This document shows positions 2,652-44,921 of a stretch of DNA of 64,000 nucleotides, in pieces. The number at the start of each line of letters is the position of its first letter. Within the stretch, counting starts at the first letter, position 1. The notes beneath the pieces were generated by a model. It worked only from the letters and a program-made list of their open reading frames with translations. It was not told the origin of the DNA and ran no database searches. A program made the translations under genes and the position numbers. The stretch spans positions 1 through 64,000 of the forward strand of contig JAJRXD010000024.1 of assembly GCA_024276465.1 (NCBI GenBank), in the 5' to 3' direction. The stretch is from Deltaproteobacteria bacterium (GTDB taxonomy: Bacteria > Desulfobacterota > WTBG01 > CAIYCZ01 > CAIRTM01).

Positions 2652-5600
2652 CTATGCCCTTTTTGCTTTTAATTTAATCTCTTCAATAGCGCAATAAAGA
2701 ACCGGAACAATAAGTATGGTAACCACGCTTATCAGCATCCCGCCAAATGACGGTATTGCCATTGGAACCATTATATCAGAACCCCTTCCTGTAGATGTAA
2801 GAACAGGAATAAGCGCCAGTATTGTTGTAGCGGTGGTCATAAGGCATGGCCGTGCCCTCCTCATTCCTGCCTCGACTGTGGCCTGCCTGATTTGCTCCAC
2901 AGAATCCGGTTTTGCCTCTTCGAATGACTGATCAAGAAATGTTGCCACAACCACACCATTGTCAGAGGCAATACCAAAAAGAGCAAGAAATCCCACCCAG
3001 ATGGCAACACTTAGATTAATAGGATGGACCTGAAAAAGCTCCCTCATGTTTGTCCCAAACAGGGAAAAGTCAAAAAACCAGCTCTGGCTGTAAAGCCATA
3101 CCATAAGAAAACCACCGGCCCATGAGACTAAAATACCTGAAAAGACCAGTGAAGTTGTCATTATTGATCTGAACTGGAAATAGAGAATCATAAAAATAAC
3201 AAAAAGTGCCAAAGGCAGAATCACAGCCAGTTTCTTCTGGGCCCGAACCTGGTTTTCATAGCTCCCTGCAAATATGTAGCTCACGCCCGAAGGAATCTGC
3301 AACTCACCGCTCGCAATCTTGTTCCCTAAGTACTGCTGCGCCTGCTCGACCACGTCTACTTCCGCATAGCCCGGTTTTTTATCAAACAGTACATAGCCTA
3401 TAAGGAAAGTATCTTCACTTTTGATAATCTGGGGTCCCCGCACATATTTTATCTCTGCTAACTGAATCAGAGGAATCTGTGCACCGCCGGCAGCAGGAAC
3501 AAGGATTTCTCCTAATTCCTCAATGGAGTCCCTGAGCTCGCGAAGATATCGAATCCTGACCGGATAACGCTCCCGGCCTTCAACAGTTGTTGTGATTCGC
3601 TTTCCACCAATAGCAACCTCAATTACTTCCTGTACCTGTCCTAACCGTATGCCGTAACGGGCAATGGCATTCCTGTTAATCTCAATTTCAAGATAGGGTT
3701 TCCCGACAATACGGTCGGCAATCACTGCAGCAGGTTCAATTGAAGGTACTTCCTTTAACAGCTTTTCAATCTGCGGGCCGACACCTTCAATTGTTTCAAG
3801 ATCAGGCCCCTTTATTTTTACCCCCATGGGCGCACGCATACCACTTTGAAGCATAACAATCCGGGCAGCAATCGGTTGAAGCTTGGGGGCCGAGGTGGTG
3901 CCTGGTATTTTGCCTGCTTTAACAATTTCATCCCATATATCATCAGGATTGTTAATACCGTTCCATGACTCCCTGTCAGAATTAAGATCAGGATCAAGGG
4001 GCGGCCGCCATTGACGAAATGGCCTGCCGTCTTCATCCTGAATAAGTTTACCGTTTTCATCACGCTCAAAAGTTCCCTTTACTTTATACGGCTTACCATC
4101 ATGAGCCGGCAGCTGCACTCCGACTGCGTTTCGAAAATAGTCAGATGTGTCAGGGTTAAAGCGGAAAGTCAGCCTCTTGCCGGTCTCGTCAGTAATGTAT
4201 TCAGGGTAATAGTTTATCACAGTTTCAATCATTGAAATAGGTGCAGGATCAAGTGGGGTCTCAGCTCGCCCAAGCTTGCCGACCACAGAAAAAACTTCCG
4301 GAATGTCCTTAATTGCCATATCCTGCTTTTTAAGAACATCAATCACCTCACCGATTGAAGCATGCGGCATGGTGGTGGGCATGTACAGATAGGATCCTTC
4401 ATCCAGAGGTGGCATAAACTCTTTGCCAAGCCCCGGGAAGGTGTGGGCAAAGGAAGAAACAACTGATATCCTTTTAACCTGAACAGGCAGCCATCCCAGC
4501 ATGGAATCAAAACCCAACCAGACAAGCATCCCTAAAAATGTAATAACAACAGGGGTAGAAAGAAAAACAAGTTTATTCGACAGACACCACTTAAGAATGG
4601 GGCTGTAAAAGTAGAGAAAAATCTTAAAAAATGCCAGCAGCCCTCCAACCAGACCGGCAACAAACAGAAAATTCAGTATCATCCCCTCTTCAGGTCCCAG
4701 CGGCATCCAGTGATCGGAAAGCACCATGCCCACAAAAAGAACTGAACCTCCTGTGAGAATCCAGGGCATACACTGTTTTATTTTTTCCGGGATAAAATGT
4801 TCACACAGATTGTAAACCCCAAAACATACAAGAATTATCCCTGCCCACCAGCTTAAAACAAAGGCCAGAACAATACCGCCTAAAATCATTGAACCGTAAA
4901 AAACACGGCGAAGCACCTTGCCTGTAACCCTGCCTGTAAAAAGAATATGTGCCATTGGAGGAATAATGGTCATGGCTACAATAACGGAGGAAACCAGTGC
5001 AAAGGTTTTTGTAAATGCCAGAGGCTTAAAAAGTTTTCCCTCTGCAGCCTCCATGGTAAAAACCGGCAGAAAGCTCACAATCGTGGTGGAAACAGCTGTA
5101 ATGACCGCACTGCCAACCTCAGAAGCTGCTCTGAAGATCACCTCAAGACGATTTTCTTCCGGGTCCGCACTGTCAAGATGTTTGAGAATATTCTCGCAGA
5201 TGATGATTCCCATATCAACCATGGTTCCTATTGCAATGGCAATACCTGAGAGTGCCACAACGTTTGCATCAACGCCGAACATTTTCATGGCTATGAAGCA
5301 CATAAGAACTGCCAAAGGCAGCAGAGCGGAAATCAGGACTGAGCTCCACAGATGCATAACCATCACAAGCACAACAATTACCGTAACCAGTATTTCCTCG
5401 CTCAGGGCTGTATTCAGGGTTCCAAGGGTTTCATTAATCAAACCGGTTCTGTCATAAAAAGGCACAATCGCAACCTGACTCACAGTTCCATCAGGAAGGG
5501 TTTTCTTCGGCAGGCCGGGGGATATTTCCCTGATTTTCTCTTTAATATTCTTTATTGCAGCAAGCGGGTTATCACCATAACGCACAACAACAACACCGCC

Positions 5601-6545
5601 AACCGCCTCAGCACCTTCTTTGTCAAGTGCCCCGCGCCTCAGGGCAGGACCAAGGTTGACAACACCAATATCCTTAATATAGAGAGGAACATTATCATTG
5701 ACTTTAACAACGCTGTTTTCAACATCACTGAGATTTTTTATAAACCCAAGGCCACGAATAACATATTCCACCTTGTTTACTTCTATGGTACGCGCACCAA
5801 CGTCAATATTTGACTGCCGTATGGCATCTATAATTTCACCTAACCCGACATTATTAGCTCGCATGGCATCCGGATCAACATCTATCTGGTATTCCTGAAC
5901 ATAGCCACCTATTGATGCAACTTCACTTATACCGTCTGCAGAAAGGAGTGCGTAGCGCACATACCAGTCCTGAATTGTGCGCAGTTCATGCATATCCCAT
6001 CCACCGGTCGGATTCCCCTTCTCATCAAGCCCCTCAAGGGTATACCAGAAAATCTGGCCCAGAGCTGTTGCATCCGGTCCCAGGGCAGGCTGCACTCCCT
6101 GAGGAAGTGTGCCTGCAGGCAGACTGTTAAGCTTTTCAAGCACGCGGGAACGGGACCAGTAAAAGTCAATCTTATCCTTAAAGATTACGTATATGGTTGA
6201 GAAACCAAACATGGAATAGCTGCGTATGGTTTTAATACCGGGTACGCCAAGAAGTGAAACAGTCAGGGGGTATGTTATCTGATCCTCTATGTCCTGGGGA
6301 GACCGGCCCTGCCAGGCTGTAAAAACTATCTGCTGGTTTTCACCAATGTCGGGAATTGCGTCAACAGGCACAGGATCGCGGGGAAGAAATCCTGTATCCC
6401 AGTCAAATGGTGCAACCATGACTCCCCATCCCACAACAAGCCCTATCATCAGAAACACAACCACTTTCATCTCAAGACAGAATCTGATGAGGCGATCAAG
6501 CAGGGACGGGCTTTCCTGCAACTGCTGTTTCAGCGGTTCATTCAT
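2652..6545 (-). CDS. cusA: heavy-metal RND efflux pump, CusA-type, unusually long (1297 aa)
   Basis: Inner-membrane proton-driven pump of the HME-RND family. After TM1 comes the CusA signature TAWQGRSPQDIEDQITYPLT, and TM4 carries GTMVDMGIIICEN, matching the HME proton-relay region. The C-terminal half has LFGIASDNGVV and MTTATTILALIP. I place the start at ATG 6545, which overlaps the end of cusB (ATGAATGA), rather than an ATG nine codons upstream inside cusB. Usual CusA is about 1050 residues. The excess sits in an inserted hydrophobic segment near residues 540-680 (several extra predicted membrane helices) and a polar insertion near 780-880. It ends with TAG followed two codons later by TAA. 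Copper/silver is the likely substrate given the neighbouring copper genes. Confidence 0.92.
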   Translation of the reverse strand: MNEPLKQQLQESPSLLDRLIRFCLEMKVVVFLMIGLVVGWGVMVAPFDWDTGFLPRDPVPVDAIPDIGENQQIVFTAWQGRSPQDIEDQITYPLTVSLLGVPGIKTIRSYSMFGFSTIYVIFKDKIDFYWSRSRVLEKLNSLPAGTLPQGVQPALGPDATALGQIFWYTLEGLDEKGNPTGGWDMHELRTIQDWYVRYALLSADGISEVASIGGYVQEYQIDVDPDAMRANNVGLGEIIDAIRQSNIDVGARTIEVNKVEYVIRGLGFIKNLSDVENSVVKVNDNVPLYIKDIGVVNLGPALRRGALDKEGAEAVGGVVVVRYGDNPLAAIKNIKEKIREISPGLPKKTLPDGTVSQVAIVPFYDRTGLINETLGTLNTALSEEILVTVIVVLVMVMHLWSSVLISALLPLAVLMCFIAMKMFGVDANVVALSGIAIAIGTMVDMGIIICENILKHLDSADPEENRLEVIFRAASEVGSAVITAVSTTIVSFLPVFTMEAAEGKLFKPLAFTKTFALVSSVIVAMTIIPPMAHILFTGRVTGKVLRRVFYGSMILGGIVLAFVLSWWAGIILVCFGVYNLCEHFIPEKIKQCMPWILTGGSVLFVGMVLSDHWMPLGPEEGMILNFLFVAGLVGGLLAFFKIFLYFYSPILKWCLSNKLVFLSTPVVITFLGMLVWLGFDSMLGWLPVQVKRISVVSSFAHTFPGLGKEFMPPLDEGSYLYMPTTMPHASIGEVIDVLKKQDMAIKDIPEVFSVVGKLGRAETPLDPAPISMIETVINYYPEYITDETGKRLTFRFNPDTSDYFRNAVGVQLPAHDGKPYKVKGTFERDENGKLIQDEDGRPFRQWRPPLDPDLNSDRESWNGINNPDDIWDEIVKAGKIPGTTSAPKLQPIAARIVMLQSGMRAPMGVKIKGPDLETIEGVGPQIEKLLKEVPSIEPAAVIADRIVGKPYLEIEINRNAIARYGIRLGQVQEVIEVAIGGKRITTTVEGRERYPVRIRYLRELRDSIEELGEILVPAAGGAQIPLIQLAEIKYVRGPQIIKSEDTFLIGYVLFDKKPGYAEVDVVEQAQQYLGNKIASGELQIPSGVSYIFAGSYENQVRAQKKLAVILPLALFVIFMILYFQFRSIMTTSLVFSGILVSWAGGFLMVWLYSQSWFFDFSLFGTNMRELFQVHPINLSVAIWVGFLALFGIASDNGVVVATFLDQSFEEAKPDSVEQIRQATVEAGMRRARPCLMTTATTILALIPVLTSTGRGSDIMVPMAIPSFGGMLISVVTILIVPVLYCAIEEIKLKAKRA

Positions 6546-8199
6546 TGGTCCGGCCTTTCTGCTCTGTTTCATTCATACCCTGAGAAATAATCTCCTTCTG
6601 GCTGCCGCATTTAAGCATGGCTTTTCCATAGTACGGGTTTTCTGTTTCCGGTTTGTCCTGAAGCCAGTATGCACCCCTGCCTTCATTGGCCATTGAACAG
6701 TAAAAGCGATAAATTGACAGGGAACTGCCTGTTCCAAACTTTTTAGTGACTGCGTACAGAGCATCAGACAGATCATCAAACTGGGCCCGGAAATCTTCAA
6801 TATTCCCTGCAGACTTAACTGTTTCTGCGTACTGTTCCAGTTTTTTCTGTTCATTCATCCATGCCATATGAGCCTTGCCTTTGAGATCTTTCATGTCAAC
6901 TTCACCAAGAGCTGCAAGGAATGATTGTGCGCCGCCAACAGCACTCTTGAAATCATCATGGCTCAGGGCCTGATGGATCTGAAAATATGCAGCCACAAGA
7001 CCGTCAATCCTGAGCTTGAATACATCCGGCACATCATCAAATGCTTTGAGCTCTGCCTTCCCAGGCTTTTGTGAAGGCGCTGATGACCGTGCCTTGCTCC
7101 CGTGCTGATGTCCTGCTGGTGCCTGTCCTTCAGGGCTCATCATGCTTGGTTTCGCAAGTATCTGAACAGCACTGTCAATTTTGAAATTACCGTTAACAAC
7201 AACCTTCTCGCCCTCGCTGAGCCCCTCCTTAACGAGATAATAGTCGCCCGCCCGAGGACCAAGGACAACCTCCCTGCCTTCAAAACTTCCCTCCCTGTCC
7301 GGCAGAGCAACATAGACTAAAGCCCTTTTACCTGTTATAAGCGGTGCGCTGGCAGGAATAACAAGGGGAGCTTCTTTTTGCAGCTCTGAAACACTTACAT
7401 AGCCCTGCGATTCAGCAGTAACAAGGGGCATGCCGCATATATCACATCTGCCTTTTGCGTCCTTTACTATCTCAGGATGCATGGGGCATATCCATTTCCC
7501 TGAAAGGTCAGGGTCCATTACCCTGCCTCCTGCCGCAATCTTCGGAAAGACCCGGGCACTGACAAACATTTCAGGCTTGAGTTTACCATCCAGATTCAAT
7601 ACATTTACCCGGACCTTGACTGTCCTGGTTTTTGAATTCAGAATAGGATCTATAAAGGTTATTTGACCTGTGAATGTTTCGCCGGGGTAGGCTTTGGTTG
7701 TAAATTTTATCTTCTGGCCATACCTGATCCACATCAGATCGGATTCATAGGCGTCAAGTTTGATCCAGGCATGGGAAAGATCTGCAACAGTGTAAATCCG
7801 TGTACCTGTATCAACATACATTCCTTCAAAGCCGTTTTTATGGACAACAATACCGCTCTCAGGTGCATAGATGGTAATACGGTCTCTGATTTCTCCGCTT
7901 TTCTCGATTCTTTTAATCTGTTTTTTAGTCAACCCCCAAAGACGCAGTTTTTCTCTTGTTGCATCAACGTTTATAAGGTTGCTCTGCTTCATGCGTGACG
8001 TACTGCTCTTCAGCATTTTCAGGCCTAAAAGAAGCTCCTGCTGCGCTGTGATAAGCTCCGGGCTGTACAGGGAAACCATGTGATCTCCCCTTTTTACGTT
8101 TACGCCGGTATAGTCAACATAAAGCTCTTCTATACGCCCTGGAATCCATGCAGTAATGTAGGAGAGGCGTGTCTCATCATAGTCCACCTTGCCGACCAT
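6538..8199 (-). CDS. cusB: CusB-type periplasmic adaptor, part after the in-frame TAG (C-terminal 553 aa)
   Basis: The membrane-fusion-protein body: barrel-sandwich and hairpin region starting GRIEELYVDYTGV, with YSPELITAQQELL, then YVDTGTRIYTVADLSHAWIKLDAYESDL and PGETFTGQITFIDP. A heavy-metal-binding motif (CPMHPEIVKDAKGRCDICGM) lies near residue 240. The C-terminal 150 residues match DUF3347 (YRFYCSMANEGRGAYWLQ, then NPYYGKAMLKCG). Reading frame and homology are continuous with 8206-8568; only a TAG codon at 8206-8208 separates them. The ATG at 8199 is three codons after that TAG and lacks a good ribosome binding site, so this part could be made by re-initiation, by stop-codon read-through, or not at all. 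It would link CusA to CusC. Confidence 0.85.
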   Translation of the reverse strand: MVGKVDYDETRLSYITAWIPGRIEELYVDYTGVNVKRGDHMVSLYSPELITAQQELLLGLKMLKSSTSRMKQSNLINVDATREKLRLWGLTKKQIKRIEKSGEIRDRITIYAPESGIVVHKNGFEGMYVDTGTRIYTVADLSHAWIKLDAYESDLMWIRYGQKIKFTTKAYPGETFTGQITFIDPILNSKTRTVKVRVNVLNLDGKLKPEMFVSARVFPKIAAGGRVMDPDLSGKWICPMHPEIVKDAKGRCDICGMPLVTAESQGYVSVSELQKEAPLVIPASAPLITGKRALVYVALPDREGSFEGREVVLGPRAGDYYLVKEGLSEGEKVVVNGNFKIDSAVQILAKPSMMSPEGQAPAGHQHGSKARSSAPSQKPGKAELKAFDDVPDVFKLRIDGLVAAYFQIHQALSHDDFKSAVGGAQSFLAALGEVDMKDLKGKAHMAWMNEQKKLEQYAETVKSAGNIEDFRAQFDDLSDALYAVTKKFGTGSSLSIYRFYCSMANEGRGAYWLQDKPETENPYYGKAMLKCGSQKEIISQGMNETEQKGRTNE

Positions 8200-8205
8200 T
8201 CTTAT

Positions 8206-8568
8206 CTATGCGGTTACGAATTTTTTTTCAACCGGAGCCGTTCGAATCTCTGCCAGTTTCATTGCATATGCAGACAGCTTATGTTCGCGAGGCCCGGCTT
8301 TTCCATCGTCACTGCCACTGGAAACCGGAATAAGGTCCATCCCGCAAAGGGGACACTGGCCCGGGCCAGGCCGCTGAATTTGCGGATGCATTGAACATGT
8401 CCAGAATTTTATCTGGGCTTCCGACCCTGTGTCCTCCTGCACCTGCACATTTTCTGTTTTAGACCCATTGCCTCTAATGGCAAAACCCAGGGCAAATGCA
8501 ATAATAAACATAATAAACACAAAGACCCATGAACGTGTTTTTGATCTGTTCTGTGCAAGGGGGTTCAT
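8206..8568 (-). CDS. cusB: CusB-type adaptor, N-terminal part ending at an in-frame TAG (120 aa)
   Basis: A good Shine-Dalgarno site (AAGGAG) precedes ATG 8568. The fragment has an N-terminal membrane anchor (WVFVFIMFIIAFALGFAI), a heavy-metal-binding motif (CSMHPQIQRPGPGQCPLCGM) and the start of the adaptor domain (KLAEIRTAPVEKKFVTA). It stops at TAG (8206-8208). The following codons, in the same frame, continue the expected CusB sequence (IRMVGKVDYDETRL), so one sense codon, probably GAG or CAG, has become TAG. On its own this fragment would be a membrane-anchored metal-binding stub. TAG also ends cusA and several other genes here, so it is not generally reassigned. Confidence 0.85.
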   Translation of the reverse strand: MNPLAQNRSKTRSWVFVFIMFIIAFALGFAIRGNGSKTENVQVQEDTGSEAQIKFWTCSMHPQIQRPGPGQCPLCGMDLIPVSSGSDDGKAGPREHKLSAYAMKLAEIRTAPVEKKFVTA

Positions 8569-8677
8569 CTTTTCTCCTTAAAGTAAAACGGACAAACAGT
8601 TGCAAAAAAGTTCCAGAGAAGCTCCACAGGGAACGGGGGCTTCGCGGGATTTAACCAATTATAAAGTCAAAAAACAG

Positions 8678-8802
8678 GCGACAAAGTAAAAAGTTCCCGA
8701 TACAAGGCACGCAAATCCGAAGGAGTGAGGCGTACTTGTTCGTACGCTGCAATGACTGAGGATGCAGCGTAACGCAGCAGATGGACTTTTTACGAAGTCG
8801 TC
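8678..8802. repeat. dispersed palindromic repeat family B, copy 1
   Basis: About 125 bp with terminal inverted repeats (GCGACAAAGTAAAAAGT / ACTTTTTACGAAGTCGTC). It contains GTGAGGCGTACTTGTTCGTA and a GCAGCGTAACGCAGCAGATG segment. It directly abuts the stop codon of the YHS gene. Other copies are at 10687-10811 and 28937-29059. Confidence 0.8.
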
Positions 8803-9123
8803 TTAATGGTTATGACCTGAATGATCAGTATGCTCAGCACCTTTGCCTGCTTTTTCAGCAGCCTTCTCAAGTTCAACCCCTTCCTTCTTCATCTTCTTTA
8901 CATACTTTTCAGGATCTTTTTTAAATGTACTAACACATTTTGGACAGCAAAAGTATACTCTCTTGCCGTTATAATCCATATGTATGTTCTTGTCTACCTG
9001 CCCGCCCATTACAGGACAGGTTGTTTGTTCTTTTGCCATTACCACATCCCTTGTTAACAGGCTGAAGCAAAAAAGTAAAACCAGTACTGTACCTGCTAAA
9101 ACAGCTTTTTTCATTGTCTTCAT
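8803..9123 (-). CDS. exported YHS-domain metal-binding protein
   Basis: 106 residues starting after a good AAGGAG site. The signal peptide (residues 1-31) is followed by a YHS-type motif, TTCPVMGGQVDKN, then GKRVYFCCPKCVSTFKKDPEKYV, which provides Cys ligands for a metal. The C-terminal tail is charged and His-rich (HTDHSGHNH), as in periplasmic copper-binding proteins. Located between cusC and cusB on the same strand, it probably holds or delivers Cu(I)/Ag(I) to the efflux complex. Family assignment is firm; a role as Cus chaperone is inferred from position and the His tail. Confidence 0.85.
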   Translation of the reverse strand: MKTMKKAVLAGTVLVLLFCFSLLTRDVVMAKEQTTCPVMGGQVDKNIHMDYNGKRVYFCCPKCVSTFKKDPEKYVKKMKKEGVELEKAAEKAGKGAEHTDHSGHNH

Positions 9124-9212
9124 AACAATCTCCTTTTCTGGGTTAAATAGTAAACAGTTAGTTATATAGCAATCTATACACTGCGTTTAAAATATTTGCT
9201 TATGATATTGAT

Positions 9213-9263
9213 TGTAGGAGCGGCTTCAGACGCGATATAATCGCACCTAAAGGTGCTCCTACA
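9213..9263. repeat. dispersed hairpin repeat family A, short copy
   Basis: TGTAGGAGCGGCTTCAGACG ... AAAGGTGCTCCTACA forms a hairpin just after cusC. It is a short member of the family whose long copies are at 27231-27395 and 30208-30370. Its left flank resembles the flank of the copy at 26684-26737. Confidence 0.75.
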
Positions 9264-9269
9264 TGCTCG

Positions 9270-10622
9270 TTAAAAAATTCTTTTACCCACCACTGCTTCA
9301 AGCCCTGCCAGATCCTTTTCATAATCCCTTACAGCCCTCTCGTACTCTATTTCAAAATTAAAAAGCGTAATCTGACTGTTGAGCAGAGTAAGAAAATCAA
9401 TCCTTGCCACCTGATACGCTGCCATATCAGCGCTGAGGGACTGCTCTGCCTGTGGAATAATACTGGCCCGGTAGAGATCCATGAGCTCTCTGCTCCTTTT
9501 AATTCTTGAACCAAAGTCCCTGACTGCAAAACAGACATCATTTCTAACACTCTCATATTGTGATTTTGCCTGTAATATACGGTAATGGGTTTCGGAAACC
9601 TTTTTATCCTGCTTGCTTCTAAACCAGATGGGGATATTCACTCCCACAAAAAAAGAGAGAAAATCCGGCCTGTCCCTGTCATCGGCAAGAGGCGCCACAA
9701 CAACATTACTGAATGTTCCGTCACTGGAATTAGTAACCCTTGCAGGAAACGGCTTTGAGCGCACCCGGTTGTCCCTCTGTCCGTAAGAAGCTGTAAAGGT
9801 AAATTGGGGGAAATACTGTTTCTTTGCCAGAAAATGTTCGGCCTCACTGCGTTCAATGTCATGTTTAAGAGCTTCCAGCAAAGGGTTGCCTGCAAGCGCC
9901 ATTTTTTCAATTTCTTCATCTGTATAACCGAACTCGGTATTTTTTTTCACTACAGGAACCCCGCTTAACTTGACAGAGGAATTACGGTTAAGCAGCCTGA
10001 TTAAATCCGCTGAAACCGTTGTCTGCCTCTGCCTGAGGTTAATCAGTTTCTCCTGCATTTTATACAGCTCAACCTGGGCCGTCAAAATATCCTCCTGAAG
10101 GCCCTTTCCCACCTCATATTTTATCTGGGTAAGCTCAACAAATCTTGCAAGAAGATCCTCATTTTTCAGTGTGATCTTTATTGACTCATTAACAAAAAAA
10201 AGCTCGAAGTATGCTTTTTTTACATCCCGCACAACTTTAATCTTTTTATCTTCAAATTCACTTACTGCACTTTTTGCCTGCTCAACAGCCGCTTTTCCAC
10301 GCAGGGATGTTATTCCTGGAAAAGGCACATTCTGCTTTATGGAAACAGTCTTCTGCGTCATGTCCTGTTTATTAAAATCAAAATCATCCACTGGAACATT
10401 GTTGAGTCCAAAGGTGATCAAGGGATCATCCCATGCTTTGACCTGGGATGGCCGCTCCCACAGGGCATCTTTCCTCTTCTGAAAAGATTCTATTCCAGGA
10501 TTGTTTGCAAGTGCCTCCTGAATAAGAGCTTCAAGATCCAGAACATCCTGAGCAAAACAGTTGGTATAAAAAAAAGACAGAAAAAACAGGCAAAAAACAA
10601 CTTGCGAAAAAACCATTTTCAT
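9270..10622 (-). CDS. cusC: outer-membrane efflux channel, TolC/CusC family
   Basis: 450 residues with signal peptide (residues 1-24, ending TNCFA) and a GGGGGA ribosome binding site. It shows the two-fold repeated OEP layout: an N-terminal ALANNPGIESFQKRKDAL stretch, long helical hairpins and strands such as FTASYGQRDNR and FVGVNIPIWFR. Near the end, QVARIDFLTLLNSQITLFNFEIEYERAVRDYEKDLAGLE is typical of metal-efflux channels. No lipobox Cys at the expected position, unlike E. coli CusC. It is first in the cusC-YHS-cusB-cusA order and should form the outer-membrane exit duct. Confidence 0.9.
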   Translation of the reverse strand: MKMVFSQVVFCLFFLSFFYTNCFAQDVLDLEALIQEALANNPGIESFQKRKDALWERPSQVKAWDDPLITFGLNNVPVDDFDFNKQDMTQKTVSIKQNVPFPGITSLRGKAAVEQAKSAVSEFEDKKIKVVRDVKKAYFELFFVNESIKITLKNEDLLARFVELTQIKYEVGKGLQEDILTAQVELYKMQEKLINLRQRQTTVSADLIRLLNRNSSVKLSGVPVVKKNTEFGYTDEEIEKMALAGNPLLEALKHDIERSEAEHFLAKKQYFPQFTFTASYGQRDNRVRSKPFPARVTNSSDGTFSNVVVAPLADDRDRPDFLSFFVGVNIPIWFRSKQDKKVSETHYRILQAKSQYESVRNDVCFAVRDFGSRIKRSRELMDLYRASIIPQAEQSLSADMAAYQVARIDFLTLLNSQITLFNFEIEYERAVRDYEKDLAGLEAVVGKRIF

Positions 10623-16782: not shown

Positions 16783-16787
16783 ACACT

Positions 16788-18439: not shown

Positions 18440-18868
18440 TTACAGAAGAAAGGAGGATTTCATCAGAAATATGGTTTGGGATGTTGAAAGACAGGAGTCC
18501 CTTTTAAAAAAGGCTTTTTTAGGATTATTCCTGTATTCCTGCTTTTGAAAAGTAATTTCACAAAAACTTAAAGCCTGCCCTTTTTCATTCTTTGAGCTTA
18601 CGCAAAAAGAGTTGTCATTGCTCCTGGTTTTACTTATGGTACATTTGCAATGGTTGCTTTTTGACAGGCTTTTATGTTTAGAAACATGTTTGTTACTGTG
18701 TTTATCACTGTGTTTATGCAAAGGGGCATTTTTTTTACATCCGCACTGGCAATCTGCCTTAAAACACCCCACACATTCTGAAGGTATTGCATGTGCCAGT
18801 ATGGGAAACACCCATACTGTCAGCAGCAGAAATACAGGCAAAAGTGATAATTTTCTAAAGTGTCTCAT
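18440..18868 (-). CDS. exported Cys/His/Lys-rich protein, probable metal binder
   Basis: 142 residues. A signal peptide (residues 1-27, ending AHA) precedes a segment rich in Cys and His: SECVGCFKADCQCGCKKN, then KHSDKHSNKHVSKHK and NHCKCTIS. These would suit binding of soft metals in the periplasm. The C-terminal third is unremarkable and no family is recognised. Start ATG 18868 lacks a convincing Shine-Dalgarno site. It lies on the same strand after the SiR-like/HMA fusion gene, so it may be the last gene of that copper cluster, or separate. Function is inferred from composition only. Confidence 0.6.
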   Translation of the reverse strand: MRHFRKLSLLPVFLLLTVWVFPILAHAIPSECVGCFKADCQCGCKKNAPLHKHSDKHSNKHVSKHKSLSKSNHCKCTISKTRSNDNSFCVSSKNEKGQALSFCEITFQKQEYRNNPKKAFFKRDSCLSTSQTIFLMKSSFLL

Positions 18869-19048: not shown

Positions 19049-20221
19049 CTAACAACAACTACCGCTAATGCCCGATGTTCCTGGTGATGCCGGTTGACGT
19101 GCAATACCGTAACCAGCATCCTCAATGGCTTTTTCCAGCTCTTTCACGGATGCCCTGGTGCAATCAAACTCCACCAGGGCCAGTTGAGATGTCAGATCAA
19201 CCTTAACACCCGTCACCCCTTTCACTCTTTCCAGTGCTTTTGTAACGTGTCCAACACAGTTTTTACAGCTCATACCTGTAATATTAAGTTTAACCTTTTT
19301 TGTGGTATCGCTGTTTTCCTGATAAAGCTTTTGAAATATAGGGGCCACTCCAACCCTGTTTAATATAGAGGTCAGGCTCTCCTCTCCAATCGATTCTTCT
19401 CTGATAAGCTCAACAGTTGCCTCCAGAGCCTTCATAAGGGTCTCCTTGTCTGCTATTTTAAAAAGCTCGTACCCGTCATGGTGAAATCTTCCGAACTTTC
19501 CGCCAACAAATATCCTGTATCCGCTCTCTTCAGAGACAAAAACATTGTTTGGACAAAATTTTATACAGTTACCGCACCGGTCGCAGGCTGCAGCATCGAT
19601 TTCAGGCCTTCCTTTTCTTATCAGAATAGCGTTTTTCCTGCACCTGTCAACACAGGTAAAACATTCTGTGCACTGCGCGGCAGTAATCATGGGTTTGGAC
19701 ACTCCAGCTACACCGAAAGGACTGGTCTCAGGCCCGGTACAGCCATTAACACAGCCTGAAACAGAAACAGTCAGCTTATGATGGGCAAGAATTCTCTCAT
19801 CATCACGGAGCATGTCAGCAATCATTTCGCTGACTTTTAAATCACGCAGCTTTTGTTCTACCTCCTTCTTCAGCTCCCTGACCTCAATGTTCTGGGAAAT
19901 GCAACGGAAATATTTTGCATGGCACAGGTTCACATTAAAAAGGTCCACATCTCTCTCTAAAATTTCCCTGGCTGATTTCTCCATGCGCTCCCTCAAACCA
20001 GCCTCACCCTCTGCAATTCTCTTGTCTAATTCTCTGTTTCTCACACCCTCAGGAACCCTGTCATAATAAACCCTTTTTGTTTCCTCAAGCTCCTTCAGAG
20101 TCACACAATCGCTCCTGTTCCTCCTGGCAAGCTTCTCGGTAAAAAGCTTACCGGTCTCCTTCATAACATCAGCAAGAGGCATTTTAACAAATTCTTCTAC
20201 CGCTTCCCTGTCCCATTCCAT
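19049..20221 (-). CDS. PCP_red / sulfite-reductase-like / ferredoxin protein fused to a C-terminal HMA domain
   Basis: 390 residues from ATG 20221, chosen because GGAG precedes it and the N-terminus then matches the paralogue at 21880-22764; an upstream ATG at 20263 overlaps the preceding gene. Order: PCP_red-like helical domain (1-55, EWDREAVEEFVKMPLADVM); a nitrite/sulfite-reductase-like region with NLCHAKYFRC (CX6C) and SGCVNGC (CX3C), resembling the sirohaem/4Fe-4S site but one residue longer than the usual CX5C; two 4Fe-4S ferredoxin clusters (CTECFTCVDRC, CDRCGNCIKFC); a helical stretch; and an HMA domain (GMSCKNC) near residues 311-375, ending SGSCC. The HMA fusion suggests copper or another soft metal is donor, substrate or regulator. 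Cytoplasmic. The reaction is unknown. Confidence 0.8.
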   Translation of the reverse strand: MEWDREAVEEFVKMPLADVMKETGKLFTEKLARRNRSDCVTLKELEETKRVYYDRVPEGVRNRELDKRIAEGEAGLRERMEKSAREILERDVDLFNVNLCHAKYFRCISQNIEVRELKKEVEQKLRDLKVSEMIADMLRDDERILAHHKLTVSVSGCVNGCTGPETSPFGVAGVSKPMITAAQCTECFTCVDRCRKNAILIRKGRPEIDAAACDRCGNCIKFCPNNVFVSEESGYRIFVGGKFGRFHHDGYELFKIADKETLMKALEATVELIREESIGEESLTSILNRVGVAPIFQKLYQENSDTTKKVKLNITGMSCKNCVGHVTKALERVKGVTGVKVDLTSQLALVEFDCTRASVKELEKAIEDAGYGIARQPASPGTSGISGSCC

Positions 20222-20255
20222 TTTAACTCCATGATTTTTTGTTATACACAGGTTT

Positions 20256-20657
20256 TCATTCATCCATACTTGACAGCACCTTATAATCGCTCATTATTCT
20301 GTCCAGTGTTGCCTGCCTTCTGACTTTCGCCTTTGTATTGAAATACTTATCCCTCAGTTCTTCTTTATCAAGATATTTCTCCAACTCTTCGGCAAGATTC
20401 TCCAGTCCTCTTACTGGAACAAGAGAATCAAAGGTTTTAAAGGCCATGACAGAAGGGTCATCAGGCAACAGTTTTATTATCTCTTCAGCACCACCACAGG
20501 GCACACAGCACGGCTTAAGATCTTTCTGTTCACACGGTTTACTTCCAATGAGGTTAATACAATTGTCTGTAACCCTGACAATTGTAGGGATCAGAAGGTC
20601 CATAAACCACCCTATTTCAAACATAAAGTAATAGCCGTCGTCAATCCTGTCCATCAA
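20256..20657 (-). CDS. unknown Cys-containing protein, 133 aa
   Basis: No family is recognised. The central segment has SKPCEQKDLKPCCVPCGGAEE, four Cys that could bind a metal or cluster, preceded by a mildly hydrophobic region (MFEIGWFMDLLIPTIVRV) and followed by charged helices. It lies 34 bp before the chosen start of the SiR-like/HMA fusion and 61 bp after the 300-aa Cys-rich gene, all on one strand, so it is probably part of the same operon. No signal peptide. A start two codons in (MDRIDDGYY) is equally possible. Confidence 0.6.
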   Translation of the reverse strand: MMDRIDDGYYFMFEIGWFMDLLIPTIVRVTDNCINLIGSKPCEQKDLKPCCVPCGGAEEIIKLLPDDPSVMAFKTFDSLVPVRGLENLAEELEKYLDKEELRDKYFNTKAKVRRQATLDRIMSDYKVLSSMDE

Positions 20658-20718
20658 TGTTCTCCCTCTGAAAAGACTGCCTGTATTGCCAAACAGTCTG
20701 AATTTTCAGACAAATATA

Positions 20719-21621
20719 TTATTCAACCGATCTGCCCAGGGCAATAAAAAGATGACGTGTATTGAGCCCTGGATCGTTTTTTTCTTTTGAAATTTCCTCA
20801 GCAGAATTAATAAGGCTCTGGAGACGCTCCCTTGTCATATTCTTTGCAAGAAGCAGAGCAGAGAGGGCCTGAAGAGTGTGTTCGCACCATCTGAGGTGTG
20901 TCATTTTACTGACTTCATCAACACAGTCATTCATCTCTTTCTCCACAGCCTGCTCTTCACACTCTGCACCAAACACAGGATCACACTCAACACAGGCTGC
21001 ATAGTGAATCATAATTTCTCCGTCCTCTTTCGGGGTTTTATCCTCCATCTGTTTGTATTCACAATTTTTTGCCATTTCAGCAGCCGCAATATCCAGGATA
21101 GTTGTAGTTACACCCTTAAGACCACCCGGCTTTGCCATCTTTTTCCTAAGATCTTCAGGCCCGACAACATCTTCACATTTTTGTGGATTTTTTACCATCT
21201 CCTCAGCAATGGCCTGAATCTTTCGGGCTGAATCCAGAGGAACTGTCCCGTCGGAAAGAGATGAACTCAGGTTGAACCTTGCATGGCAACACCATGGCAC
21301 AGTCTCACTGCGCCTTAATTCTTCACGGTGCAGGCCGCTCACATACTGGTTGCCCTTGCACATTGCCTTCAGGTTTTTACTGCATCGCTGACACATGTTT
21401 ATATACATCAGCGCACGTTCAGGAATCCATCCGGTATCCCTCTTTTTCTCAAAAGTAGCTATTGAATCCTTCTCAAACTGGCGCTCCCCGACTTCTTCAC
21501 GATACTTGCTTATGCATCCGGATGAACAGTACATCTTCTCGTTAAGTTCTATGGGATAGCTGGTTGCGTTTCCACAAATAACACACTCGTGCTGCTGACT
21601 GCTGTTAGCTGACGGGGTCAT
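20719..21621 (-). CDS. unknown Cys-rich protein with N-terminal zinc-finger-like motif, 300 aa
   Basis: Start ATG 21621 follows a strong AGGAGGA site; an upstream in-frame ATG at 21657 has none. The N-terminus has CVICGNATSYPIELNEKMYC followed by SSGC, a treble-clef or TRASH-like metal-binding pattern. More Cys occur in MCQRCSKNLKAMC, PWCCHARF, and a cluster near residues 205-240 (CVECDPVFGAEC). The rest is mainly helical and cytoplasmic. The C-terminal RHLFIALGRSVE may be shared with other anaerobe proteins, but I cannot name the family. It lies between the two SiR-like genes in the same orientation, so a joint role is likely. Confidence 0.65.
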   Translation of the reverse strand: MTPSANSSQQHECVICGNATSYPIELNEKMYCSSGCISKYREEVGERQFEKDSIATFEKKRDTGWIPERALMYINMCQRCSKNLKAMCKGNQYVSGLHREELRRSETVPWCCHARFNLSSSLSDGTVPLDSARKIQAIAEEMVKNPQKCEDVVGPEDLRKKMAKPGGLKGVTTTILDIAAAEMAKNCEYKQMEDKTPKEDGEIMIHYAACVECDPVFGAECEEQAVEKEMNDCVDEVSKMTHLRWCEHTLQALSALLLAKNMTRERLQSLINSAEEISKEKNDPGLNTRHLFIALGRSVE

Positions 21622-21688
21622 AATAAAATCCTCCTGGTTTTTCTGTTTTTTTTCCATATTCTGACAATTGATGCTCCCGTAAAAAAGT

Positions 21689-21810
21689 TGTCATTTCCGC
21701 CCCGTCTTTGTCGGGATAAACTGCAGCGGGTATCCACAAAAAACCTTACCACTTGAACATACTGAATTCCCGTTGTTATTTATCCCGGTGTTATCGGGGC
21801 GGAAATGACA
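21689..21810. repeat. palindromic intergenic repeat
   Basis: Outer arms TGTCATTTCCGCCCCG and CGGGGCGGAAATGACA, with inner GTCGGGATAAA / TTTATCCCGG arms. A similar but degenerate copy is near 31073-31133. It lies between the SiR-like gene and the 300-aa Cys-rich gene and may separate or attenuate transcription. Confidence 0.7.
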
Positions 21811-21879
21811 CACAAAGGTTTTCAGGGCTTTTTACGACTCAGGTCATAACCGGGCGACAATCTATTGCAATATTCGGGT

Positions 21880-22764
21880 TTAACAAAGCTCCTTGTATAT
21901 TGGCTCAAGGCCGTAGCGCTCTACCATGTGGTAAAGATGTTCTTCACTTACTGCTTTCTCCCTGAGCAGCTTAATAGATGCCTCCAGAGCCTTAAAAACT
22001 TTTTCCTCATCACCTATCTTAAAAAGTTCCTGACCAACATGATGCCATCTTCCGAAATGTCCGCCAACCATAAAACGGTAACCTTTTTTGACAATTGTCA
22101 TTGCCTCTTCAGGACATTCAATTGCGCATGCTCCGCACTGCTTACAGTGCTTCTTGATAATCACAGGACCGCTTTTTTCCATCATAATACACTTGTCAGG
22201 ACATGCCTCCATACATTTTCTGCACTTCGTGCATTTTTCCGGACTGGTCAGCTCTGGAATAGCAATACCGTGAATTCCGACATCCTTGACCTCTGCTGCC
22301 GTGCAGTTATTGGGACATGCTGAAATAGAGACTGTAAAATTTGTGTGGGGCATAAAGGGGACATCAAATTTATCGGCAATCATTTCCGTCACCTTCCATT
22401 CTTCCATTTTCTTTTTAAGCTTTTTGGCAAGGTCAACCACATCTATAAGCTGGCGTGTACAACCTATGAATCTCATATGGCAGAGGTCAAACTGATAAAG
22501 AAGAGGCCCTTCGTTAAGCGCAATCTGGGGGTCAACAGCATCATCAGACACACCTTTGTCGCGGTTCTCCTTAAGCCTTTTCATAAGGGTATCCCCGAAC
22601 AGCTCGAAGTAGTCATCCCTGGTCTGAACAACCTCTTCCATGGACACCTCTTTTCTGTTGTTCTTCCTCGCAAGTTTTTCTGCATAAAGAATAGTCATAT
22701 TCTTCATAACTTCCGGCATTGGTATCCTTTCAACCGTTTCTTTTGCTTCTTTATTCCAATCCAT
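21880..22764 (-). CDS. PCP_red / sulfite-reductase-like / ferredoxin protein
   Basis: 294 residues after a GGGGAAGGA site. It is a paralogue of 19049-20221 without the HMA domain. N-terminal PCP_red-like helices (DWNKEAKETVERIPMPEVM, YAEKLARKN), then FDLCHMRFIGC (CX6C) and ISACPNNC (CX3C) as the sirohaem/4Fe-4S-like site, and two 4Fe-4S ferredoxin motifs (CTKCRKCMEAC, CKQCGACAIEC). The C-terminal FMVGGHFGRWHHVGQELF is conserved between both copies. No DsrAB, AsrC or sirohaem biosynthesis genes adjoin, though CbiX-like chelatase relatives occur at 44-45 kb. Substrate unknown; cytoplasmic. Confidence 0.8.
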   Translation of the reverse strand: MDWNKEAKETVERIPMPEVMKNMTILYAEKLARKNNRKEVSMEEVVQTRDDYFELFGDTLMKRLKENRDKGVSDDAVDPQIALNEGPLLYQFDLCHMRFIGCTRQLIDVVDLAKKLKKKMEEWKVTEMIADKFDVPFMPHTNFTVSISACPNNCTAAEVKDVGIHGIAIPELTSPEKCTKCRKCMEACPDKCIMMEKSGPVIIKKHCKQCGACAIECPEEAMTIVKKGYRFMVGGHFGRWHHVGQELFKIGDEEKVFKALEASIKLLREKAVSEEHLYHMVERYGLEPIYKELC

Positions 22765-22979
22765 TTTTTCCTTCCCCTTTCTTAAATTTATTATCTCACC
22801 CGGGGTTTAGCGCGGCATTCCTTCAGGCAAACGATCAAGTGTTTACTCGAGGGGTGCTGTTCTTGAAAGATTCTTCCCCTGTGAGAATTTCAGTGGTTAT
22901 CTGTTTTTTCTTCAGCCTGATTCATCCAGCACTGAATCTGCGTCAATACGTTGGGATGACAGTTAAAATCCCCCTGTTT

Positions 22980-23207
22980 TCATTTCTTGATCCTGTAGCC
23001 ATGAGATTCAATAGCCTTTTCAAAGTCTTCCCTGCCATACCCTTCGGGAGAGTAAGTCACGGTTACACTTTTGTCATCAAAACTTACTGAATATTCTATA
23101 TCATCAAACTTTCTGAACTCATTTTCAAGAGTTCTGGCACACCCTACACAGGTCATTCCTTCAACGCCTATAATTTCCCGCTTTTTTCCAGATGTTTCCG
23201 GGCTCAT
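22980..23207 (-). CDS. stand-alone HMA metal-binding protein (copper chaperone-like)
   Basis: 75 residues behind AAAGGAGG. Ferredoxin-like HMA fold with the metal motif GMTCVGC (CxxC) near residue 20 and the usual VTYSPEGYGREDFEKAIESHGY ending. It is the first gene of the minus-strand cluster and starts 72 bp from a promoter containing a CsoR-type operator, so it is probably copper-induced. Similar in size to CopZ or MerP without signal peptide; cytoplasmic. It may feed metal to, or take it from, the HMA domain of the SiR-like fusion. Confidence 0.85.
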   Translation of the reverse strand: MSPETSGKKREIIGVEGMTCVGCARTLENEFRKFDDIEYSVSFDDKSVTVTYSPEGYGREDFEKAIESHGYRIKK

Positions 23208-23278: not shown

Positions 23279-23308
23279 AATATACTATACCCCAGTAGGG
23301 TATGTCAA
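23279..23308 (-). promoter_or_regulatory. promoter with CsoR-type operator, copy 1
   Basis: Minus-strand TTGACA (23303-23308) and TATATT (23279-23284) with 18-bp spacing. The spacer holds the operator ATACCCCAGTAGGGTAT (23287-23303), an inverted repeat of CsoR type. It should drive the HMA/SiR-like cluster and be repressed without Cu(I). Confidence 0.75.
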
Positions 23309-23378: not shown

Positions 23379-23408
23379 TATATACTATACCCTGGTAGGG
23401 TATGTCAA
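23379..23408. promoter_or_regulatory. CsoR-type operator, copy 2, with embedded promoter
   Basis: ATACCCTGGTAGGGTAT (23387-23403) lies exactly 100 bp from copy 1 and in the same orientation; about 33 surrounding bases are nearly identical. It also carries a minus-strand TTGACA-N18-TATATA. On the plus strand TATACT (23381-23386), or TTGACA (23349-23354) with a poor -10, could start csoR transcription. The operator ends 22 bp before the csoR ATG. Confidence 0.7.
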
Positions 23409-23425
23409 GAGGAGAAGGAGGCCCT

Positions 23426-23707
23426 ATGATTAACGTGGAAGTAAAAAAAGCTGCTTTAACCCGGCTGAGAAAAATTGAGGGGCAGATTCGCGGCATCATG
23501 CGAATGGTTGAGGAAGAGCAATACTGCATTGACATTATAACCCAGATTACCGCGGCAGAAAAGGCGCTGGATGGTGTTGCTAAAATAGTCATGAAACGCC
23601 ATGTTGAGACATGCGTCAGCAATGCCATAGTAAAGGGCAAGGGACAAAATAAAATTGACGAGCTCATCAATGCGGTTTTTAAATATTCAAACAGGGGCCG
23701 GCGTTGA
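23426..23707 (+). CDS. csoR: CsoR-family copper-sensing repressor
   Basis: 93 residues from ATG 23426, chosen over ATG 23402 because GGAGAAGGAGG lies just upstream of it and because 23402 falls inside the operator. Four-helix DUF156/CsoR fold with Cys34, His59 and Cys63 (QYCIDI; RHVETC), the Cu(I) ligand set. IRGIMRMVEE is the typical N-terminal helix. It is divergent from the HMA/SiR-like cluster and upstream of copZ and copA, so it probably represses both directions through the two ATACCC-N5-GGGTAT operators and releases upon Cu(I) binding. Confidence 0.93.
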   Translation: MINVEVKKAALTRLRKIEGQIRGIMRMVEEEQYCIDIITQITAAEKALDGVAKIVMKRHVETCVSNAIVKGKGQNKIDELINAVFKYSNRGRR

Positions 23708-23774: not shown

Positions 23775-23990
23775 ATGGAAAAAACTGCTGAAATTCCTGT
23801 CTTAGGTATGAGCTGTGAACACTGTGTTAAGGCTGTGACTAATGCACTGAGCTCAAACAGTGCTGTCAGAGACGTTAAAGTTTCCCTTGAAAATAAAAAC
23901 GTACGGGTTGTTTATGACGACGAAATTACAAGTTTAACTGATATTGAAGCCATTATTATCGAAGAGGGCTATAGTACAAAGGAAGAATAA
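23775..23990 (+). CDS. copZ: copper chaperone CopZ (HMA domain)
   Basis: 71 residues behind GAGGAGG. A single HMA fold with GMSCEHCVKAV (CxxC), a typical beta-alpha-beta pattern and SLTDIEAIIIEEGY near the end. It lies between csoR and copA and should carry Cu(I) to the ATPase or exchange it with CsoR. The 150 bp between it and copA contain no recognisable gene. Confidence 0.9.
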   Translation: MEKTAEIPVLGMSCEHCVKAVTNALSSNSAVRDVKVSLENKNVRVVYDDEITSLTDIEAIIIEEGYSTKEE

Positions 23991-24141: not shown

Positions 24142-26607
24142 ATGGAAACAAAAAAAATAGCCCTTCAAGTTGGGGGGATGACCTGTGCAGCCTGCTCTTC
24201 CAGGGTTGAAAGAGGAATACTGAAAATAGATGGGGTAGATAAAGTAAACGTAAACCTGGCTACGGGAAAAGCCTCCATAGAGTTTAACCCTGAGAGGGCC
24301 AATGAATTTACTTTTATAAATGCCATCACCAATATGGGTTATGAGGTAAAAGCCGAAAAAATAACACTGCCTGTCGGAGGCATGACCTGCGCTGCATGTT
24401 CATCAAGAGTAGAAAGGACATTAAACAAAATGGACGGCGTCTTGAAGGCCTCCGTTAATATCGCCACTGAAAAGGCAACTGTTGAGTATTTGCCCGACAA
24501 AACAGGAATAACCGATTTAAAAAACACAATCACCAGTATAGGCTATTATATTAAGGAAGAAGAAGCTCCTGAAAAAATTGCGGAGGAAGATGAGGATACT
24601 AAAAAGGTTAAAGCTGCAAGGAATCGGTTGATCATTGCCTGGGCATTTACAGGCCCGATGACCCTTCTCATGCTGCTGATGTGGCTTGTACACATCCATG
24701 CTCTTCACCTTTATCACCACTGGATTATGTTTATACTTGCCACCCCTGTTGTCTTCTGGGCTGGTCATCAAACAAACAGATCCGCCATAAAAGGCTTGAT
24801 GCATTTGAGCCCGAGCATGGATGCTCTGATTTTTTTAGGTGTTTTTGCATCCTATTTAATTGCCATAGCCTCATTTTTTATTGACATACCCAGTTTTGCA
24901 ATGCCTGCAGCCATGATCATGGCCTTTCATCTTATAGGAAGGTATCTTGAAACCATGGCACGGGGACGGGCTTCACAGGCCATCAAAAAACTCCTGAAGC
25001 TTGAGGCCAAGAGCGCCCGCCTCCTGATCGATGGCAAAGAGGTTGAAGTGCCCATTGAAAAGGTTCAGGTCGGCGACACAATGGTAATAAAACCGGGAGA
25101 AAAAATTGCCACTGACGGAATTGTGGTAAAAGGCACAAGCAGTGTTGATGAATCCATGGCAACCGGTGAGTCCATGCCGGTTGAAAAGAAAGATGGTGAT
25201 GAGGTTATAGGCTCCACAATCAATCAGCAGGGACTTATACATGTAAAGGCAACCAAGATCGGTAAAGACACCTTTCTTTCAAATGTAATCAAGATGGTGG
25301 AGGAGTGCCAGGGGACGAAGGTTCCGATCCAGGAATTTGCCGACAGGGTTACTTTTTATTTTGTCCCTGTGGTTATTTCCATTGCTGTTGTTACGTTTGC
25401 TTCCTGGCTGATATTTCCGGCTTTCTTTACCAATATTGCCGCCTGGGCACAGGACTATCTGCCATGGGTTAATCCATCTCTGGGAATTATCCCCCTGTCT
25501 CTGTTTGCCTCCATAACCGTGCTGGTCATTGCCTGTCCCTGCGCCCTTGGTCTGGCAACGCCTACTGCCCTGATGGTTGGAAGCGGCATGGGGGCTGAAA
25601 AAGGTGTTCTTATTCGGCACGGCGAAGCAATTCAGACACTCCAGGATGTTAAAGCCATTGTTTTTGACAAGACCGGAACCATCACCAGCGGCAAACCGGG
25701 TGTGACGGATATTGTCCCCTGCAATGGTTTTGACAGGAATGAGATTTTAAGGATTGCAGGTTCAGTCGAAGCCGGTTCCGAGCACCCGCTGGGCCAGGCC
25801 ATTGTAAATGAGACAAAAAGAAAAAGGTTCACACTCTATGATCTTAAGGATTTCCAGTCGATTACCGGGCAGGGCGTTGAAGGAAAGGTGAATGGACATG
25901 ACGTTAAAGTGGGAAACCCTAAACTTATGCTACAGGCCCAGGTACCCATTGAGCCCATGAAGGATTTACTTGAGAAGCTTGAGGATGAGGCCAAAACCGT
26001 GATGCTTATCGCTGTTGACAACAAGCTGGCCGGGTTAATTGCTGTTGCAGATACACTAAAGGCTGATTCGGTTGATGCAATCAGAGAGCTCAACAGCATG
26101 GGGTTTGAAACCGTTATGATTACAGGCGACAACAAGAGGACTGGAGATGCCATAGCGAAAAGAGTAGGTATTGAACGGGTTCTTGCAGAGGTAATGCCCG
26201 GGGACAAGGTTGAGGAAATTAAGAGGCTGCAGGACAGACTGGGAATGGTTGCTATGGTGGGAGACGGAATTAATGACGCCCCGGCCCTGACCCAGGCAAA
26301 TGTTGGAATTGCTATTGGAACCGGAACCGATATTGCCATTGAATCATCTGATATTACCCTGGTCAGGGGACAACTCAGCGCTGTGATATCAGCTATCAAG
26401 CTCTCATCCAATACATTTAAAAAGATTAAGCAAAATCTTTTCTGGGCATTCTTTTACAATTTAATAGCCATACCGGTTGCCGTAATGGGGCTGCTTCACC
26501 CTATTATAGGAATGACTGCCATGGCAATAAGTTCCCTGTTTGTAGTCACCAATTCTCTAATGCTTAAAAAATCAGATATTGAACCGAATTATAAAAACCA
26601 GTGCTGA
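24142..26607 (+). CDS. copA: Cu(I)-translocating P1B-type ATPase
   Basis: 821 residues after a CGGAGG site. Two N-terminal HMA domains, each with GMTCAAC; eight predicted TM helices; TGES in the actuator domain; [10 protein letters not shown] in TM6 (near residue 463); DKTGT phosphorylation site (near 509); SEHPLG and GDGINDAP in the nucleotide and hinge regions. These are signatures of the Cu+ class (P1B-1). It exports cytoplasmic Cu(I) to the periplasm, where the Cus pump and periplasmic metal binders could take over. Third gene of csoR-copZ-copA. Confidence 0.95.
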
Positions 26608-43773: not shown

Positions 43774-43835
43774 ACCGGATTATTCAGGTAATATATCCTG
43801 CTATGGCACTGTCAAAAATTCTATGAAAAAAACAT

Positions 43836-43993
43836 GAACCACAGAGTACACAAAGACCACGAAGGGTGTTATAAAAACAACCCTCTTAATACATTTTTTT
43901 CTTCGTGTGCTTCGTGGTAAAAAATCTTTTTTTGATGATGCAGTGCAGTATAATATATACCACCACAGAGAAAAACTCTGGGTTCTCTGTGGT
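43836..43993. repeat. two intergenic hairpin repeats
   Basis: AAGACCACGAAGGG ... CTTCGTGGT (about 43852-43919) and ACCACAGAGAA ... TTCTCTGTGGT (43962-43993). The second matches the hairpin after ftsK. They lie between the ATPase and arsR-type gene and may terminate transcription. Confidence 0.7.
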
Positions 43994-44031
43994 TTGTTTT
44001 GACATTACGGATACCGAAAGAGGACGAGTTA

Positions 44032-44400: not shown

Positions 44401-44419
44401 ATGAAAGGAGATACTATAA

Positions 44420-44917: not shown

Positions 44918-44921
44918 AGAG

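Follow-up and report, generated by a model that had tools for sequence, protein, structure and literature searches.

A CsoR-flanked gene cluster pairs sulfite-reductase-like iron-sulfur proteins, one fused to an HMA domain, with copper-handling genes

Why would a bacterium place proteins built like sulfite reductases, one of them ending in a copper-chaperone-type HMA domain, next to the genes of a copper sensor and a copper pump? This question is raised by positions 19049-23207 of a 64-kb window, the whole stretch of DNA analysed here, which forms part of one contig (JAJRXD010000024.1) of the 4.1-Mb draft genome of a Deltaproteobacteria bacterium (GCA_024276465.1). Five minus-strand open reading frames (ORFs), named E, D, C, B and A in order of transcription (23207-19049), diverge from a csoR-copZ-copA set, and all five lie at the place and on the strand given in the initial annotation. 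The answer that we favour, with a probability of about 0.4, is that they encode a CsoR-controlled cytoplasmic copper-handling module, in which iron-sulfur (Fe-S) redox proteins would help to capture Cu(I) and to deliver it to HMA chaperones, to CopA and to the Cus pump. The features concerned are the following.

19049..20263, minus strand: A, 404 amino acids; PCP_red-like, NIR_SIR (CX6C/CX3C), 2x[4Fe-4S] ferredoxin and C-terminal HMA (GMSCKNC)
20256..20657, minus strand: B, 133 amino acids; conserved CCxPC-like motif, no known family
20719..21657, minus strand: C, 312 amino acids; Cys-rich, N-terminal four-Cys motif and two CX2CX7C..C(C/x)H repeats
21880..22764, minus strand: D, 294 amino acids; PCP_red-like, NIR_SIR (CX6C/CX3C) and 2x[4Fe-4S]
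22980..23207, minus strand: E, 75 amino acids; stand-alone HMA protein (GMTCVGC)
23279..23308, minus strand: promoter-like site for E-D-C-B-A (TTGACA-18-TATATT)
23288..23302: CsoR-type operator TACCCCAGTAGGGTA, within the E-D-C-B-A promoter-like site
23388..23402: CsoR-type operator TACCCTGGTAGGGTA, just ahead of csoR
23402..23707, plus strand: csoR, Cu(I)-type (C-x24-H-x3-C)
23775..23990, plus strand: copZ-like HMA chaperone gene
24142..26607, plus strand: copA, Cu(I) P1B-ATPase with two HMA domains
2652..10622, minus strand: CusA, CusB and TolC/CusC-type efflux genes, farther along the E-D-C-B-A strand and next to C/D in several relatives

Is the cluster under copper control, as had been proposed? 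The CsoR of the window carries the exact Cu(I) fingerprint C-x24-H-x3-C, as do all eight related csoR copies examined, and thereby the Cys-His-Cys ligands expected of a CsoR-controlled copper efflux operon. Perfect TACCCN5GGGTA sites occur exactly twice in the window, at 23288-23302 and 23388-23402, and not once in 128 kb of control DNA drawn from loci of relatives. Both lie between the two arms, where CsoR-type operators had been predicted, and the first sits in the spacer between the -35 and -10 elements of the best minus-strand promoter-like site of the region (sigma-70-like, 11-of-12 match, 23308 to 23279). A similar arrangement is found in a relative, G253, where an isolated D orthologue has TACCCN5GGGTA between an upstream TTGACA and TATAAA (L103:6643-6657) and an HMA-copA-D set has the motif upstream (L104:899-913). 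Because operators are present in the window promoter and at two G253 loci and absent from the control DNA, copper control of D is well supported by the sequence, and the proposal made for the whole cluster appears to be borne out by the CsoR site and its operators. A separate observation concerns the HMA gene upstream of copA in G253 (L104:about 960-1175), in which TGA occurs in frame where the first metal-binding cysteine is expected (GMT-TGA-QHC); the gene possibly encodes a selenocysteine HMA protein.

Does the set keep the same company in other genomes? The class sample comprised 17 genomes; the relatives are draft metagenome assemblies, several with short contigs, and those named are labelled Thermodesulfobacteriota, 'delta proteobacterium' or Proteobacteria. 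A profile of the copper-type D proteins scored its own members at 362-549 bits and the next proteins of the phylum at no more than 208 bits, and a maximum-likelihood tree joined the nine copper-type proteins, counting both A and D of the window although they share one locus, in a single clade (support 100/99). A forms a long branch at the base of this clade with all cluster cysteines retained. Copper-type D was present in 7 genomes of the sample, C in 11 and a Cu(I)-type csoR in 8. D and csoR occurred together in 6/7 D genomes (Fisher 0.013) and C in 8/8 csoR genomes (Fisher 0.007), both values ignoring kinship, and C is the most constant partner of the copper set. Seven of the nine copper-type D genes adjoin csoR, copA, C or cus genes; one more, in G253, has its own CsoR operator. 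In G071, C2-D-B-E-C, a small exported Cys-rich gene and CusCBA diverge from csoR-copZ-copA, as C2-C-D-B does in G249; G255 carries D-C-CusCBA, G253 copA-D, and in G185 csoR-copZ-copA is followed by a D interrupted by the contig end.

The neighbourhood survey thus found the co-occurrence with csoR and copA that the initial annotation had anticipated, and its recurrence next to copper genes elsewhere makes the cluster appear to be more than a chance neighbourhood. We accordingly give almost no weight to the explanation that A was fused by an assembly mis-join and that the cluster is a coincidence: the fusion was found once, and every relative is a draft assembled from metagenomes, but A is a single open frame inside the 64-kb stretch with its motifs intact, and the cluster is seen in several genomes. 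Beyond the class, a single-sequence search of 247 phylum genomes found C only inside the same order. A collection-wide scan returned 13 C loci, one of them in Schekmanbacteria (L050:7869-8816), where a 56% identical homologue lies among cell-envelope genes with no copper neighbours; this suggests either inter-phylum transfer or another use of C.

What kind of proteins are A and D? In Pfam, NIR_SIR matched D at 63.9 bits and A at 42.9 bits, each protein has two Fer4 matches, and A also has an HMA domain (PF00403, 55.0 bits) with an intact CxxC (GMSCKNC). The initial annotation had described two paralogues combining PCP_red, CX6C/CX3C and 2x[4Fe-4S], one of them ending in HMA. The NIR_SIR module, a first cysteine pair of the form CX6C and a second of the form CX3C, and both ferredoxin clusters were recovered in A and in D; PCP_red fell short of the Pfam cut-off of 32.5 (12.5 bits in A, 22 bits in D). 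The HMA ending is that of A, in which it is joined to the NIR_SIR module in one open frame. All four NIR_SIR and eight ferredoxin cysteines are retained in full-length members of the copper clade, so that D and A have predicted ligands for three [4Fe-4S] clusters, which are presumably occupied.

Could these proteins nevertheless act as sulfite or nitrite reductases? Fsr, AsrC and DsrAB are the nearest solved structures to A and D by sequence and fold. An AlphaFold model of D built from five sequences matched Fsr/DsrAB, which predicts a sulfite reductase fold; because the model is poor (predicted local distance difference test, pLDDT, 49), it was used for this match only. In Fsr and other sulfite reductases, sulfite is bound by Arg355, Arg423, Lys460 and Lys462 (Fsr numbering), anion-binding residues that are described as perfectly conserved across sulfite reductases, and CX5C-Xn-CX3C is the canonical assimilatory sulfite reductase motif (PMC10229431). 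A and D belong to the NIR_SIR 4Fe-4S domain family, and a Pfam search gave no match to NIR_SIR_ferr (PF03460) in either protein. In the alignment with AsrC, the entire NIR_SIR_ferr region including the arginines is replaced by PCP_red-like helices; both Arg355 and Arg423 are absent from A and D, an assignment that is made through AsrC and is less direct than that of the lysines. The Lys460/Lys462 positions are Lys163/Thr165 in A and Asn142/Thr144 in D. Lys is kept at the former in A only, and the latter is Thr in 9/9 copper-type proteins, where most of the remaining wider family has Arg. The four cysteines are kept with altered spacing, as CX6C-Xn-CX3C.

These results bear on the suggestion that the cluster encodes a copper-induced sulfite/nitrite reductase, producing sulfide to precipitate copper or reducing another anion. 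It is favoured by the resemblance in sequence and fold to Fsr, AsrC and DsrAB and by the retained [4Fe-4S]/CX3C site; the missing domain, the loss of the arginines and of Lys462, the CX6C spacing and the lack of an AsrA/B-like partner within the cluster speak against it, as does G253, a 98% complete genome with two copper-type D genes in which no sirohaem synthase domain or NIR_SIR_ferr match was detected. We therefore set this reading low, as very unlikely; the looser label of a copper-linked reductase, meaning a redox protein, may still apply. D and A look instead like a sulfite-reductase scaffold whose substrate site has been lost, which would place them outside the sulfite/nitrite reductases, and sirohaem binding by either is doubtful. 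In a plasmid collection only distant matches to D were found, which are asrC where annotated.

The origin of the scaffold offers another clue. A sister clade of PCP_red-NIR_SIR proteins resembles copper-type D in domain plan and length, and at several of its loci the neighbours are hydroxylamine reductase (hybrid cluster protein, Hcp), flavodiiron protein and rubrerythrin. It differs in forming a separate clade, in lacking copper neighbours (none of 13 loci examined had csoR or copA nearby) and in often having lost the second cysteine of the first pair; its Hcp-linked branch has Arg at the Lys462 position, where the copper-type proteins have Thr. At four loci (L118-L121), sister proteins recur with hydroxylamine reductase, a rubredoxin-like protein and a ferredoxin, and may represent an apparently unstudied Hcp partner. 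Exposed Fe-S clusters suffer copper damage, and this, together with the company of the sister clade, is consistent with the copper clade being a copper-induced copy of a redox-stress protein, one that deals with damage (reactive oxygen or nitrogen species, oxidised thiols, broken clusters) and not with copper itself. A changed, copper-specific role is indicated instead by the joining of HMA to A, by the close association with C and E and by the absence of the Arg that the Hcp-linked branch keeps, and we regard the stress explanation as rather unlikely.

Two copper-clade D genes have other neighbours. About 2 kb upstream of one lies a ferredoxin-dependent bilin reductase-like gene (L103:3567-4403; PF05996, 41.4 bits, above cut-off), flanked by ferredoxin and FAD-oxidoreductase genes; the other (L105:8350-12437) adjoins nikR, a cobalto/magnesium-chelatase ATPase gene and the start of a BchH/CobN-like gene, a possible nickel or tetrapyrrole link. 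That both of these D genes, which lie apart from copper genes, have tetrapyrrole-type genes in their vicinity, and that NIR_SIR and PCP_red-like domains derive from tetrapyrrole enzymes, would fit a protein that binds sirohaem, sirohydrochlorin or another tetrapyrrole and, when copper interferes with tetrapyrrole synthesis, protects or salvages the bound molecule. Two neighbourhoods are few, however, the sirohaem-embracing domain and the positive residues are gone, and G253 does without a detectable sirohaem synthase, all of which makes such a role distinctly improbable.

What do the remaining proteins contribute? E is the lone HMA protein that had been noted (PF00403, 46.3 bits, CxxC present as GMTCVGC), and its copy in the G071 cluster is 64% identical. 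B and C, which had been singled out as unfamiliar, gave no significant family in Pfam or NCBIfam; B is also present in the same cluster of G071 and G249. An N-terminal Cys motif, with four cysteines wherever that end of the protein is complete, is common to fifteen C homologues. They also have two repeats, CX2CX7C..WCCH and CX2CX7C..(W/Y)CxH, which match one another in a profile comparison (probability 98%, E 1.8e-13), giving a duplicated arrangement of at least 12 conserved Cys/His. The AlphaFold2 model of C is confident and mostly helical (pLDDT 84.8; predicted template modelling score, pTM, 0.84); a fold search of the PDB gave nothing at E<=0.001, sequence searches of the PDB no credible relative and the plasmid collection no relative. 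When the N-terminus of C was considered as a possible TRASH/metallothionein-like treble clef, Metallothio_Pro matched four C members weakly (best E 0.0013, below cut-off). PCP_red matched three, also weakly (best E 0.0089). Because a profile-profile comparison gave a probability of only 0.4%, we do not claim a PCP_red-like domain common to C and D. C probably binds metal, to judge from its cysteine pattern, and copper would be the obvious candidate.

Taken in order, the steps of the proposed copper-handling module would be these. Excess Cu(I) would release CsoR from the shared intergenic region, so that CopZ-CopA and E, D, C, B and A would be produced together. D and A would probably act as Fe-S electron-transfer proteins and, with the Cys-rich and probably metal-binding C, capture copper as Cu(I). 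The Cu(I) would then be handed to the HMA domains of E, CopZ and A itself, and exported by CopA and the Cus pump. In this scheme the joint induction of the two arms, the part played by C and any reduction or transfer of copper are inferred. A more specific version can be put forward tentatively: A and D would form a new class of Fe-S copper chaperone, in which the former sulfite-reductase scaffold supplies electrons, for reduction of Cu(II) to Cu(I) or of thiols, during Cu(I) loading onto HMA, and C stores or relays copper. Several facts weigh against the module. The D of G248, although in the copper clade, has neither copper neighbour nor operator; G104 and G209 carry C with csoR-copZ-copA and no copper-type D, and because these csoR-copA genomes do without it, D would be an accessory; the HMA fusion was found in A only, in one draft assembly; and the metal binding proposed for C is read from cysteines alone.

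The copper island extends beyond 19049-23207 to the CusABC-type genes and a small Cys-rich exported protein (18440-18868, minus strand). Some starts in the island may need revision: csoR probably begins at 23426 and not at 23402, because csoR of relatives begins there, the ATG at 20654 is the likely start of B, and for A the ATG at 20221 is a possible one, because relatives begin there. The cusB ORF (6538-8199, minus strand) lacks about 125 N-terminal residues of its close relatives (L038, L041, L046), by an alternative start, a frameshift or an assembly error. The exported protein belongs to a family found near csoR or cus genes (also L038:8710-9135, L041:9110-9556, L039:12164-12646 and L151:965-1432), with a variable middle and a near-constant end (..FLMKSSFLL, ..FLFTSSFLL, ..FLLKASFIL, ..ILKSSLLI, ..FLINSSFLL) that is reminiscent of ribosome-stalling copper-sensing leader peptides such as CutF (PMC9973294). 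Also inside the island, 14515-18047 (minus strand) encodes a protein rich in Gly, Met and His that contains an ethylbenzene-dehydrogenase haem-type domain, as well as a PQQ-type beta-propeller protein. Elsewhere in the window, 40936-45410 (plus strand) encodes a second P1B-type ATPase, which has a tail rich in His and three HMA-like repeats. Behind it, at 44420 and 44922, lies a tandem pair of CbiX-like genes, of the cobalt/sirohydrochlorin chelatase type.

Bacterial copper defence usually follows a scheme of sensing, chaperoning, pumping, storing and oxidising. A cysteine-rich set under the same copper switch as the pumps points to a so far undescribed route for coping with toxic copper. If our reading is true, a copper-switched Fe-S protein on a sulfite-reductase scaffold, together with the C family, would add a cytoplasmic redox step to this defence, in probable anaerobes whose exposed Fe-S clusters are a main copper target. 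The new Cys-rich family C is present in every csoR genome of the class, and the HMA fusion of A makes the link between redox chemistry and copper directly testable.

How does the locus compare with known systems? In the literature, searched for CsoR in combination with sirohaem or sulfite-reductase proteins, no account of a cluster like this one was found. Like CsoR-controlled copZ-copA efflux operons, the window has a CsoR with the Cu(I) Cys-His-Cys site, a palindromic operator, copZ and copA, with a Cus pump nearby; it differs in having an extra arm that runs the other way (E, D, C, B, A) and contributes a NIR_SIR-HMA fusion and two families that neither Pfam nor NCBIfam recognises. Fsr, AsrC and DsrAB share with A and D the NIR_SIR fold with an inserted 2x[4Fe-4S] ferredoxin, whereas A and D lack NIR_SIR_ferr, have CX6C for CX5C and have lost the sulfite-binding Arg/Lys set. 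A parallel to A in design is CopZ of Archaeoglobus fulgidus (Sazinsky 2007, cited in PMC7558416), reportedly a [2Fe-2S]/Zn copper chaperone. The N-terminal [2Fe-2S]/Zn domain of that CopZ gave no Pfam match in A. In both proteins an Fe-S redox module is physically joined to a Cu(I)-binding HMA domain, but the module of A is unrelated, being a sulfite-reductase scaffold with three predicted [4Fe-4S] sites.

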